Below are positions 15,085-19,758 of a stretch of 19,758 nucleotides of DNA, one piece after another. Position numbers and translations under genes: made by a program. The stretch covers positions 1 to 19,758 of the forward strand of contig NSHO01000011.1 of assembly GCA_002737105.1 (NCBI GenBank), read 5' to 3'. The notes beneath the pieces were generated by a model. It did not search any database and was not told the origin of the DNA. It was given only the letters and a program-made list of their open reading frames with translations. This DNA is from Flavobacteriales bacterium (GTDB lineage Bacteria > Bacteroidota > Bacteroidia > Flavobacteriales > Flavobacteriaceae). Numbering within the stretch: position 1 is the stretch's first letter; each line of letters begins with the position of its first letter.

Positions 15085-17643
15085 CTATTTCAATCCTTCT
15101 ACTTTAGCTTTTACTTCTTCTAGAGAACCTTCAAAAGTTTGAACATTTACATTATCGTTTATAGAAGTAGTAACTGTAGCTTTTGCTTTTCCGTTAACGT
15201 TTTTAATTTCTACTTTAACGTTTTTATCAGCGTCTTTAGAACAGCAAGATTTTTCTCCTTCATTTGCTACAAATTTTCCATCGGCATCATAATGAGCCAT
15301 GCACATTTCTTTTTCTTCAGCGGTACAACCTAAAGAATCGCACATTTTTGCACATGCTTCTTTGGTCATAGTTGCGCATTTTGTCATATCGCATTTACCC
15401 ATTTCTGAAGTGCCATCAGCATTCATTTCAACAGTGTATTTCATTTCTTTTTTAGTTCCTTCAGAATGACCTCCTAAAATAGGTGCGATTACCAATCCAA
15501 TCAAACACGTTAATTTGATTAAGATGTTCATTGATGGTCCAGAAGTATCTTTAAATGGATCTCCAACAGTATCTCCAGTTACGGCAGCTTTGTGAGCATC
15601 AGAACCTTTGTATGTCATTTCTCCGTTGATTTCTACACCTGCTTCAAAAGATTTTTTAGCGTTGTCCCAAGCACCACCTGCGTTGTTTTGGAATACTGCC
15701 CAAAGTACACCTGAAACGGTAACTCCGGCCATATAGCCACCTAACATTTCAGCAATTAATTGGTTATCATCTGGGTAAACTAATTTTCCTAAAAGTACAA
15801 TTGCAATTGGAAAACCGATGGTTAAAATTCCTGGCAACATCATTTCGCGCAAAGCGGCTTTAGTTGAAATTTCCACACATTTACCATATTCTGGTTTGCC
15901 TGTTCCTTCCATAATTCCTGGAATCTCTTTGAACTGACGACGTACTTCGTATACCATATCCATAGCAGCTTTTCCAACAGAATTCATCGCTAAAGCAGAG
16001 AAAACTACTGGAATCATTCCACCTATAAATAACATGGCTAATACTGGTGCTTTGAAAATATTAATTCCGTCAATTCCTGTAAACGTTACATAAGCAGCAA
16101 ACAAAGCTAAAGAGGTTAACGCAGCCGAAGCGATTGCGAATCCTTTTCCTGTTGCAGCAGTTGTATTTCCTACTGAATCTAAAATATCGGTACGCGTACG
16201 CACTTCTTTAGGAAGTTCACTCATTTCAGCAATTCCACCTGCGTTATCAGAAATTGGTCCGAAAGCATCAATGGCTAATTGCATTGCAGTTGTTGCCATC
16301 ATAGCTGAAGCGGCAAGCGCTACACCATAAAAACCTGCAAACGCATACGAAGACCAAATTGCCGCAGCAAATAATAATACTGTTGGGAAAGTTGAAATCA
16401 TACCAGTTGCTAAACCTGCAATTACATTTGTTCCTGCTCCTGTAGATGATTTTTGAACAATAGCCAAAACCGGTTTTGTTCCTAATCCTGTATAATATTC
16501 AGTTACTGATGAAATGGCTCCACCAACTATTAATCCTACAATAGTAGCATAGAAAACACGCATAGAAGAAATGTCTTTCAATCCTTCACCGTAAAATTCC
16601 ATTTTCATAGTTGTTGGTAACATATATTCTACTAAAAAGTAACATGCAATTAAAGTCAGTCCAATAGAAACCCAGTTTCCAATGTTCAACGCTTTTTGTA
16701 CTTGTGCTTCCTTAGCATCATCACTTGAAATTTTAACTAACATGGTTCCGATGATAGAAAATAAAATTCCAAAACCAGCAATTGCCATTGGTAATAAAAT
16801 TGGTCCGATTCCGCCAAAAGCATCATCGATTTTTCCACCCATATCTTTAATTACGTAATTTCCTAAAACCATAGCAGCTAAAACCGTTGCTACATACGAA
16901 CCAAATAAATCGGCACCCATACCAGCTACGTCACCTACGTTATCACCAACATTATCTGCAATTGTCGCAGGATTTCGAGGATCATCTTCTGGAATACCCG
17001 CTTCCACTTTTCCTACTAAATCGGCACCTACATCGGCAGCTTTGGTATAAATACCGCCACCCACACGAGCAAATAAGGCTATCGATTCAGCACCTAATGA
17101 GAAGCCTGCTAAAGTTTCTAATACGATGGTCATTTTTTCGGTTCCATCTACTCCCCAAACTCCGCCCATAAAGAAACGGAAGAAGACAATGAAAAAAGTG
17201 GTTAGTCCTAAAACAGCTAAACCAGCAACACCTAATCCCATTACTGTTCCGCCACCAAAAGATACTTTTAAGGCTTGTGGTAAACTAGTACGAGCAGCTT
17301 GAGTTGTACGTACATTGGTTTTAGTTGCAATTTTCATTCCCATATTTCCTGCTAAAGCAGAGAAAAATGCGCCAAAAATAAAGGCAATTACAATTAGCCA
17401 ATGTGTGGTTGGAACGAAAAAAGAAATGGCTCCAAGAACTATACTCGCGCCTATAACAAAAAAGCTTAATAATCTGTATTCTGCTTTTAAGAAAGCCAAT
17501 GCACCTTCATAGATGTAATCTGAAATTTCTTTCATTTTACCGTCTCCTGCATCTTGTTTTAATACCCATGTGCGTTTAATTGCCATAAAAAGCAATCCTA
17601 TAATTGCCATAACAATTGGCAAGTAAATCATAAAATCATTCAT
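15085..17643 (-). CDS. hppA: Membrane pyrophosphatase (K+-dependent type) with Cys-rich C-terminal extension
   Basis: An 852-residue ion-pumping pyrophosphatase that hydrolyses PPi and drives H+ or Na+ across the inner membrane. The core (about 1-725) has about 16 membrane helices and the active-site motifs DVGADLVGK (204-212), DDPRNPATIADNVGDNVGD (220-238), DNAGGIAEMS (466-475) and DTVGDPFKDTSGPS (691-704). Ala496 in the GNTTAATGKG segment, where K+-independent enzymes have Lys, indicates the K+-dependent class. Which ion is pumped cannot be settled by eye. Residues 726-852 are an extension beyond the usual end near the last helix: charged, with eight cysteines at 751, 756, 764, 768, 773, 781, 800 and 801, and a Lys/Val/Asn-rich beta-like tail. 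By known topology the C-terminus would be periplasmic. Upstream is a decayed ppa relic. Confidence 0.95.
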   Translation of the reverse strand: MNDFMIYLPIVMAIIGLLFMAIKRTWVLKQDAGDGKMKEISDYIYEGALAFLKAEYRLLSFFVIGASIVLGAISFFVPTTHWLIVIAFIFGAFFSALAGNMGMKIATKTNVRTTQAARTSLPQALKVSFGGGTVMGLGVAGLAVLGLTTFFIVFFRFFMGGVWGVDGTEKMTIVLETLAGFSLGAESIALFARVGGGIYTKAADVGADLVGKVEAGIPEDDPRNPATIADNVGDNVGDVAGMGADLFGSYVATVLAAMVLGNYVIKDMGGKIDDAFGGIGPILLPMAIAGFGILFSIIGTMLVKISSDDAKEAQVQKALNIGNWVSIGLTLIACYFLVEYMLPTTMKMEFYGEGLKDISSMRVFYATIVGLIVGGAISSVTEYYTGLGTKPVLAIVQKSSTGAGTNVIAGLATGMISTFPTVLLFAAAIWSSYAFAGFYGVALAASAMMATTAMQLAIDAFGPISDNAGGIAEMSELPKEVRTRTDILDSVGNTTAATGKGFAIASAALTSLALFAAYVTFTGIDGINIFKAPVLAMLFIGGMIPVVFSALAMNSVGKAAMDMVYEVRRQFKEIPGIMEGTGKPEYGKCVEISTKAALREMMLPGILTIGFPIAIVLLGKLVYPDDNQLIAEMLGGYMAGVTVSGVLWAVFQNNAGGAWDNAKKSFEAGVEINGEMTYKGSDAHKAAVTGDTVGDPFKDTSGPSMNILIKLTCLIGLVIAPILGGHSEGTKKEMKYTVEMNADGTSEMGKCDMTKCATMTKEACAKMCDSLGCTAEEKEMCMAHYDADGKFVANEGEKSCCSKDADKNVKVEIKNVNGKAKATVTTSINDNVNVQTFEGSLEEVKAKVEGLK

Positions 17644-17680
17644 AGTTTCTTGTAAAAAGTTAATTTTAAATTTAATCGAG

Positions 17681-17688
17681 CAAAATTA
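17681..17688 (-). promoter_or_regulatory. Bacteroidota-type -7 element upstream of hppA
   Basis: The minus strand reads TAATTTTG, matching TAnnTTTG, 38 nt before the hppA ATG (17641-17643) and just after the terminator hairpin. There is no -33 TTG at the usual spacing (the hairpin occupies that place), so only the -7 element supports it. Confidence 0.4.
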
Positions 17689-17691
17689 AAC

Positions 17692-17728
17692 AAAAAAGGC
17701 AATTATTCTAACGATAATTGCCTTTTTT
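17692..17728 (-). terminator. Terminator downstream of the ppa relic
   Basis: A 15-bp inverted repeat (17692-17706 with 17714-17728; core AAAGGCAATTAT) encloses a 7-nt loop, TCTAACG. It lies between the stop of the ppa relic and the hppA start, so it was presumably the original ppa terminator and keeps hppA as a separate unit. Confidence 0.75.
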
Positions 17729-17748
17729 ACTAAAATTAGGGGAATTTT

Positions 17749-17932
17749 TTATTTTATGCTAAATAATCCCTCTGGTTTATTTTCAATTTCTTCAAATCGT
17801 TGGCTTCATTCTTTTAAGATAGCGTGCGCTTCATTTAAGTCACCCGGCCATTTTGTTTTCTAAATCTTTGTATTCTTAAAAGAAGTGTTCATGTCAGTTT
17901 AAGTGTTTTTTTTCGACGGAAAAGTTAGAAAA
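17749..17932 (-). pseudogene. ppa: Relic of soluble inorganic pyrophosphatase C-terminus
   Basis: Reading the minus strand, codons in one frame from about 17930 to 17843 give FSVEKKHLN, stop, HEHFF, stop, EYKDLENKMAG. A shift to a second frame continues GDLNEAHAILKE, stop (TGA, 17806-17808), SQRFEEIENKPEGLFSIK and a final TAA at 17749-17751. HEHFFxxYKDLE and the segment that follows match the C-terminal end of family I soluble inorganic pyrophosphatase (E. coli has HFFEHYKDLEKGKW), and a C-terminal ENKPEGLFSIK fits Bacteroidota members. The first stop codons, the frameshift and the missing N-terminal part (about two thirds of the protein, with the active site) mean it is not functional. It sits directly upstream of hppA, between it and the DUF5686 gene. 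Confidence 0.8.
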
Positions 17933-18026
17933 AAGATAGAAGATAGTGAGGCCTGCATTTGATTTTTTATATTATTGATTTTGTAGTAATATTAATACAT
18001 CAATGAAGTTCCTTTTGCCTTTTAAT
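17933..18026. other. Short spacer between the ppa relic and the DUF5686 gene
   Basis: AT-rich sequence with no open frame, hairpin or repeat that I can support. In an intact ppa locus the N-terminal coding part would start near here, so these bases may be unrecognisable gene debris. Confidence 0.4.
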
Positions 18027-19758
18027 TTAAAAATAAAAACCAAAACCTACCCGTATTGTAAATTTTCTGGCATCGGGAATATTAAAATAACTGCCTCGCC
18101 AAGCTGCATCAATTCGCATTACTTTAAATATGTTACCTATTCCTGCAGAATATTCAATATAGCCATCAACTGGTGCTTGATAATTTTGTCCGGAGGCATT
18201 AATTGCTTTGTTTTCATTTGAAACAGAACCATAAACGGCTTTTGCCCCAATAATTTCTCTCCAATTTAATTTTCTTAATAGCGGCACTCTTGAAAATAAT
18301 TTACCATTAAAATTATGCTCCAAATGTAGTGAAGTATATTGATCGGCTACGAAATCGTAATAATTTAATAAATTGTAGGTGTTGTCGATAATAAAAAAAG
18401 ATTGGTTTCCAGGAATAATTCCCATTAAAGATAAAGGTACTGTTCCAAAGGTTTTACCAACTTCTAAAGTAGTAAATAGTCGGCCAAATCCGCCAATTAA
18501 TATAGGCTGACGATAAAACATTTGTAACTTGGAATAACTGAAGTCGCTATTTAAAACCCCTTTTAAACCTTGAGAGTAACTAACAAAAATTCTTGGATAA
18601 TTTAAATCTACCTCTATTCGGTCTACACCATATCCAATCATTTTTCGATTTGGCGTATAATTGACTAAGAAATTGACTTCAGATTGGGTAATTTTGTTTG
18701 CCGTTCGACTAAATGTGTCATCCGTAAAATAATCTAATTTGAATTCGGAAGAAGCAGAAGATAAAGTTCTGTAAGAAAAACTACTTTCGAAAACCAAATT
18801 TTTAACAGGCTCTATTTCAAAACCTAAATTAGTTAAATTGACATTAGTTAATTTGTTGTTTGTACCACTTGAAAAGAAGGAAGAAGACGCAAAACTTCTA
18901 CCTAATACATCATTAGAAGTGGTTAAACTTACGCCAATTTGTTCGACGTCTCTTCGGTTTCCAAATGAGGCAATAAATCTATTTTTCTTATCCAACATTA
19001 CACGTGCATTGATGCCGTATTTTACTTTTTGGTCTTTAAAACCGTAAGCGGTATACCCTTGAATACGCCAAGGATCGTTGGTGCCAAAGTAAGTTCTTCC
19101 ACCTAATCTAATGCGTTGCCCTTCTACATCATTATAACCAAAAGTAGAGAAAACGGGGCCGATATCAAATTTTCCAACTTGTATGTAACCACTTCCTAAA
19201 ATGGATACAATATTGTAAAAACGTTTAATTTTTGGTACCGTTTTTAAAGTGTCTAGCATCTCATAAATTCCTTTTTCATTAGAATTTAAACTTTCAAATC
19301 TATTTTCTTCCCAATATTCCTCCGTTTTAGCATACGCTTCTTTGTTGAACGTGTTTACTTCTTCACGGTAAAATTTATCGTCTTTTTCTCGGTTGAATTC
19401 GTGATTTTTAAACATGGTAGTTCGTTTGCCATACATGCCATTTGAGCCTTCTTTTTTTGTAAGGGCAAAATCTGTCATCATGTGATCTCGTTTCAATAGG
19501 AAAACCGAATCGTTAAGTACGTCAAATTCTTGTTCAATATAAATATCTCGTACCCAGTTTATGTTAGCACTTTTGCTTGCTTCCATATTGATGCTTTTTA
19601 TAGCAAAAGTGGAATCGTTTACCCAAAAATCACCCTTAAAAGTCAATTCGTTTTTCCGTCTGGGATAATATACAATGTTATAGCACCATTTTTTATCAAT
19701 AAAAGTACTATCGGCTAAAACATAATTATATACTTGAATTCCTGTTCGAGATATCGGA
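18027..19758 (-). CDS. DUF5686 family outer-membrane-type protein, 5' end outside window
   Basis: The reading frame stays open to the right edge: upstream of codon 19646 it reads ...DKKWCYNIVYYPRRKNE before LTFKGDFWVND, so the gene starts beyond the window and an internal TTG is not its start. About 576 residues are visible. The first part has FKGDFWVNDSTFAIKSINMEAS and YIEQEFDVLND, then a charged linker. From about the middle a barrel follows, with many alternating strands (GYIQVGKFDIGPVFSTFGYND, GQRIRLGGRTYFGTNDPWRIQGYTAYGF), ending FTIRVGFGFYF with a C-terminal Phe typical of outer-membrane proteins. These match the DUF5686 family of Bacteroidota, which usually begins with a signal peptide and a carboxypeptidase-regulatory-like domain, here off the edge. 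Function unknown. No terminator is visible directly after its stop. Confidence 0.85.
   Translation of the reverse strand, partial: PISRTGIQVYNYVLADSTFIDKKWCYNIVYYPRRKNELTFKGDFWVNDSTFAIKSINMEASKSANINWVRDIYIEQEFDVLNDSVFLLKRDHMMTDFALTKKEGSNGMYGKRTTMFKNHEFNREKDDKFYREEVNTFNKEAYAKTEEYWEENRFESLNSNEKGIYEMLDTLKTVPKIKRFYNIVSILGSGYIQVGKFDIGPVFSTFGYNDVEGQRIRLGGRTYFGTNDPWRIQGYTAYGFKDQKVKYGINARVMLDKKNRFIASFGNRRDVEQIGVSLTTSNDVLGRSFASSSFFSSGTNNKLTNVNLTNLGFEIEPVKNLVFESSFSYRTLSSASSEFKLDYFTDDTFSRTANKITQSEVNFLVNYTPNRKMIGYGVDRIEVDLNYPRIFVSYSQGLKGVLNSDFSYSKLQMFYRQPILIGGFGRLFTTLEVGKTFGTVPLSLMGIIPGNQSFFIIDNTYNLLNYYDFVADQYTSLHLEHNFNGKLFSRVPLLRKLNWREIIGAKAVYGSVSNENKAINASGQNYQAPVDGYIEYSAGIGNIFKVMRIDAAWRGSYFNIPDARKFTIRVGFGFYF

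Follow-up and report, generated by a model that had tools for sequence, protein, structure and literature searches.

The minus strand of the window (the whole stretch of 19,758 nucleotides analysed here) shows, in the gap between an intact hppA gene and a gene encoding a DUF5686 protein, what sequence comparison confirms to be a dead remnant of ppa, the gene of a family I inorganic pyrophosphatase. We consider it probable that this stub is the leftover of a lost ppa, that the membrane pyrophosphatase HppA most likely clears pyrophosphate (PPi) alone, and that the loss seems to have recurred within the genus. The genus of the window is probably Flavobacterium; on HppA trees the hppA loci of named Flavobacterium intermingle with those of the window's genus.

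The stub spans about 50 of the 176 codons of ppa, and its positions and those of its neighbours are given in Table 1. When the minus strand is translated in three frames, one frame reads HEHFF-stop-EYKDLENKMAG and another reads PGDLNEAHAILKE-stop-SQRFEEIENKPEGLFSIK-stop, which reproduces the two-frame relic with three stop codons and one frameshift of the preliminary description; the extent given there, 17749-17932, is too long, and the homologous part ends at 17893. The intact 176-residue Ppa of locus L009 was used as tblastn query against 80 fetched hppA loci, the window and locus L001, and the E-values refer to that small set. This Ppa matches the window stub at residues 134-176 only (57% identity, E 9e-8), in agreement with the earlier claim that the gene has lost its N-terminal two thirds, and the match, together with the usual ppa slot beside hppA, bears out the family I identity proposed there. 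Similarity to family I (PF00719) is found along the C-terminal stretch, with E-values from 9e-8 in the window to 1e-17 in the orthologous stub of locus L034. The C-terminal sequence, the gene slot and the downstream inverted repeat match the ppa of relatives, whereas the window copy has no full-length open frame: it lacks the N-terminal two thirds, its frame is broken by the three stops and the frameshift, and it is a pseudogene that gives no enzyme. The Asp-rich part of family I pyrophosphatases is catalytic.

Table 1. Positions of the ppa stub, its lesions and the neighbouring features in the window
Feature	Position	Strand	Evidence
hppA, intact membrane pyrophosphatase, 852 aa	15085..17643	-	ORF; PF03030; solved chains 6aft, 4a01, 4av3
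Cys-rich C-terminal extension of HppA, past the end of the PF03030 match (residue 719 of 852)	15085-15486	-	
Inverted repeat flanked by A and T tracts, between stub and hppA	17692..17728		Sequence; self-complementary match; alignment with L174
ppa C-terminal stub, pseudogene	17749..17893	-	tblastn; frame translation; orthologous stubs L001/L158 and L034
TAA closing the stub	17749-17751	-	Frame translation
In-frame TGA within the stub, window-specific	17806..17808	-	Translation; alignment
Small deletion/frameshift, window-specific (14 alignment columns missing relative to L158 and L034)	17849..17850	-	Alignment
In-frame TAA within the stub, window-specific	17876..17878	-	Translation; alignment
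TGA directly 5' of the stub, common truncation junction of all three relic genomes	17894..17896	-	Alignment of window, L158 and L034
Gene of a DUF5686 protein, continuing past the end of the window; flanks the ppa slot upstream	18027..19757	-	PF18939, E 6e-57; synteny table

HppA matches the complete PF03030 profile (847.5 bits, residues 14-719, profile positions 1-645 of 645) and the three solved chains, and the stretches aligning with 6aft, which we take to be catalytic, include DVGADLVGKVE, DNVGDNVGD and TEYYT. The C-terminal extension differs from one to the next of the seven sequences compared, in length as well as in sequence, and one might guess that its cysteines bind metal. Comparison of the hppA loci of relatives, which the preliminary description had proposed as a check, shows that 44 of the 80 loci, all named records, have a ppa of nearly full length within the flank that was fetched, and in 39 of these 44 the ppa match ends 110-165 bases before hppA. 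The stub lies in this usual slot (DUF5686 - ppa - hppA), which argues against a chance match. DUF5686 ends 386 bases before hppA in the window, and the inverted repeat between stub and hppA is nearly identical to a sequence 3' of the intact ppa of genome G113 (L174); it is probably the former ppa terminator, kept after the gene was lost. Loci were also fetched for 30 genomes without intact Ppa, 28 of which are non-relic. Nine of these 28 show the DUF5686 end 107-218 bases before hppA and no ppa match between them: in seven the DUF5686 protein has 59-64% identity to that of the window, and in L153 and L170, with 34-35%, the gene is perhaps a paralogue. The remaining non-relic loci have DUF5686 at 703-1280 bases from hppA (11 of 28) or at 337 bases (one), lack it in the fetched flank (four), or have a flank shorter than 500 bases (three). 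Intact ppa, dead stub as in the window, and clean deletion form a plausible series at the hppA locus, and they may have succeeded one another in that order. A search of a phage collection with positions 17640-18060 of the window gave no match; a further match of the locus DNA in genome G001 (E 2e-5) is a palindromic repeat matching itself, and another, in L003, has E 5e-4.

About 30-60 bases upstream of hppA, a promoter-like stretch with leader, TTGTTAyTTTTGCnnCCGATAAAA, recurs almost unchanged in eight loci without ppa beside hppA (L035, L036, L038-L040, L043, L149 and L152), and it is missing in many ppa-bearing Flavobacterium loci. An upgrade of the hppA promoter after ppa loss (TTGTTAyTTTTGC-type) was considered and not used as evidence, since a similar element also occurs in the ppa-bearing genomes G113 and G245.

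The same stub is present in two other genomes: G001 (loci L001/L158), the nearest genome compared, which has 25% of the sampled 31-letter words of the window in common with it, and G104, whose locus L115 has 100% identity to L034 over 3373 bases and was counted with it as one genome. L034 comes from a metagenome assembly titled Chryseobacterium gleum; with DNA identical to that of the locus of G104, a member of the window's genus by its placement, it looks mislabelled. The 1300 bases around the stub align to the window at 94% in G001 and 82% in L034, and the tblastn search matches L001 at Ppa residues 126-176 (59%, E 7e-14) and L034 at residues 122-176 (69%, E 1e-17). The alignment shows all three genomes with the same junction, with the TGA in front of the stub and without the N-terminal part, and the inner TAA, the inner TGA and the frameshift are found in the window only, relative to G001 and G104/L034. 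Since all of them carry this truncated stub in one and the same position, the truncation is older than the split of these lineages, and the lesions specific to the window struck later, in a gene already truncated. The recent decay suggested in the preliminary description is therefore not supported; the stubs of L158 and L034 also differ without codon-position bias, as described below.

PF00719 is found at E up to 0.001 in 203 of the 249 genomes of the genus and over the cut-off in 201, which were taken as having intact Ppa; the two matches below the cut-off are the stubs of G001 and G104 (E about 1e-4). HppA is present in 223 of the 249 genomes and missing from 26, and family II PpaC (PF02833, DHHA2) was found in none of the 249, with matches in five of 14 control genomes. 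Forty-eight genomes show no Ppa over the cut-off, 46 of them with HppA; the two genomes with neither enzyme, G092 and G124, are each 76% complete. The complementarity of Ppa and HppA is weak over all 249 genomes (Fisher p 0.09, kinship ignored). Among the 210 genomes with completeness of at least 90% and contamination of at most 5%, all 29 without Ppa have HppA, all 22 without HppA have Ppa, and none lacks both (Fisher one-sided p 0.03, kinship ignored). Many of the genomes without Ppa are incomplete; four of them, G096, G142, G234 and G237, consist of one contig with 99-100% completeness. An order-wide draw of 118 genomes, requested at 90% completeness or more, contains 46 with both enzymes, 28 with Ppa only, 43 with HppA only (two of which carry PpaC) and one, G318 (94% complete), with neither (p 3e-6, kinship ignored). 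In this draw the order-level group f16, with genomes of 0.3-0.6 Mb (e.g. G311 and G319), shows Ppa in 20 of the 20 seen and none of them among the HppA-bearing genomes, the reverse of many small genomes without Ppa and with HppA.

An HppA tree of 80 rows (35 that lost ppa, 43 with ppa and two uncounted) requires the Ppa label to change at least 10 times, eight of these changes forced by well-supported branches, a count that gives no direction and is rough, since hppA recombines. The ppa-bearing genome G245 (L176) falls within the relic group with 99% SH-aLRT in a quick IQ-TREE tree (LG+G4) and outside it, as sister, in a FastTree tree; the first placement speaks against the reading given here, and the conflict may be read as recombination in hppA, which looks mosaic. 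The phyletic pattern is observed directly, and from it the loss of ppa seems recurrent in the genus; the functional reading of the pattern is inferred.

The window's genome might carry an intact soluble pyrophosphatase of family I, II or HAD-type elsewhere, so that the stub would be a superseded copy. Such cases exist: 36 hppA loci have no intact ppa nearby, and among the 35 of their genomes searched for PF00719 nine show a match over the cut-off, which is an intact ppa elsewhere in eight and a distant, interrupted homologue in G277. A family III enzyme, BT2127, is moreover described from Bacteroides thetaiotaomicron in the passages of PMC11210485 that deal with it. Against this stand the two stub-bearing relatives G001 and G104, each with a listed completeness of 99%, in which the stub is the only PF00719 match, PF02833 is not found and HppA is full-length, and the fact that 202 of the 203 PF00719-matching genomes have a single match, G194 alone having two. 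A superseded copy is for these reasons unlikely. As no family I or II enzyme was found in G001 and G104, HppA most likely clears PPi alone there, and on the evidence of gene content the likeliest route of PPi disposal in the window's organism would also run through HppA. The preliminary description had proposed that the soluble enzyme was lost and that PPi removal may depend on HppA or on another ppa copy; the loss stands, and of the two routes reliance on HppA is the likely one.

The rest of the 35 searched genomes comprise the one with the L034 stub and 25 with no PF00719 match. Three named species belong to these 25, F. aciduliphilum (L035), F. buctense (L039) and F. dankookense (L056), whose genome completeness is unstated. 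The homologue of G277 (L194, G277:C1:391800-393200), in the genome of L038, has 43% identity to Ppa over residues 12-139, contains a TAG, has its second piece reported separately, and lies far from hppA.

The stubs of L158 and L034 show 52 codons without internal stop, and the two differ at 10, 8 and 10 sites in codon positions 1, 2 and 3, with five synonymous and 18 non-synonymous codon changes. The same stretch of intact ppa, in five comparisons that share members, shows 7/4/20, 0/0/18, 5/2/24, 6/5/25 and 6/5/24 differences, that is, a third-position excess in all five, which is absent in the stub pair. Substitutions spread evenly over codon positions are as expected without protein constraint, so that selection at the protein level is not apparent in L158 versus L034, the pair to which this test applies, the window copy standing outside it. 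Between the window and L158, 27 of 116 sites of the 3' stub (17749-17865) are different, compared with seven of 220 in the adjoining non-coding DNA (Fisher p 2e-8); the two differ at 34 of 964 sites in DUF5686, 71 of 878 in the first part of hppA and two of 105 in the terminator and hppA leader. The spacer from DUF5686 to the stub is nearly alike in window and L158, and between window and L034 it is strongly diverged, with differences at 16 of 59 sites and 56 gap columns, which, like the placement of G245, counts against our reading. Since the divergence of the 3' stub is far above that of its flanks, drift alone should not explain it, and the excess may come from a short segment acquired by recombination with a divergent lineage.

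It is improbable that the stub is kept for a function, either as a small protein or as an RNA leader or terminator of hppA. The open frame of L158 and L034, which would suit a small protein, is weak evidence of function because the pair lacks codon-position bias, and on this ground a selected mini-gene is rejected for L158 versus L034. An early in-frame ATG is also lacking: there is none in the L034 stub, the first in L158 is at codon 30, and the other usual starts, GTG and TTG, occur at codons 12 and 16 only. The window copy, besides, is broken. The good conservation of the terminator and hppA leader could speak for a role of the RNA, yet it sits in these two elements and not in the strongly divergent 3' stub. 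The chance that sequencing or assembly errors disguise an otherwise intact ppa is negligible: the inner stops and the frameshift are indeed seen in one assembly only, but the N-terminal two thirds are absent, the gap between DUF5686 and hppA is too short for a gene of 176 codons and its spacer, and the same truncation is found in two other assemblies.

The stub is best explained as the leftover of a lost ppa. An intact family I ppa once stood between DUF5686 and hppA, and its 3' third remains. The 5' two thirds were lost in an ancestor common to the window, G001 and G104, as the common junction and slot show; the remaining stub drifts as non-coding DNA, as shown for the G001/G104 pair, and the window lineage later gained its further stops and its frameshift, as the alignment shows. 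The intact HppA would most likely be the sole PPi clearer, so that hydrolysis would be coupled to ion pumping, and the loss of ppa would be tolerable because HppA performs the same chemistry. The nearest known case of a membrane enzyme alone is that of Clostridium thermocellum and Thermoanaerobacterium saccharolyticum, which, according to the passages of PMC7657619 on these anaerobes, have no soluble pyrophosphatase and use a membrane-bound proton-pumping enzyme in its place; tRNA charging and the excretion of amino acids are suggested to be affected. The same passages describe the membrane pyrophosphatase of C. thermocellum as non-essential, which counts against dependence on HppA; these two species have PPi-using glycolytic enzymes, and the balance in Flavobacterium may differ. 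The review PMC11210485, in its account of the Rhodospirillum rubrum membrane enzyme, states that this enzyme allowed interruption of the cytoplasmic pyrophosphatase of E. coli, an indication that an enzyme of the membrane type can stand in for a lost soluble one; that system is engineered, whereas the loss in Flavobacterium is natural and seemingly recurrent. The membrane pyrophosphatase of Flavobacterium johnsoniae, of the same family and by our placement of the window probably of the same genus, is tabulated in PMC6882861 as a K+-dependent H+ pump.

Literature searches on soluble-pyrophosphatase loss or on Flavobacterium retrieved no paper describing this loss, which may have been published elsewhere. 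We give about even chances to the broader proposal that the soluble pyrophosphatase was lost many times in Flavobacterium, with biosynthetic PPi cleared by one reversible ion pump. In the textbook view, biosynthesis is pulled forward by a soluble enzyme that hydrolyses PPi. If the proposal is true, growth would be tied to membrane energy, and tRNA charging and nucleic acid synthesis would proceed without an irreversible pull. F. aciduliphilum, F. buctense and F. dankookense, as named species, would allow bench tests of this reliance. Taken alone, the stub is a pseudogene of the ordinary kind, and its value is that of an intermediate documenting gene loss; a genus whose species have both enzymes, only the soluble one or only the pump offers a natural comparison of what each one is worth.
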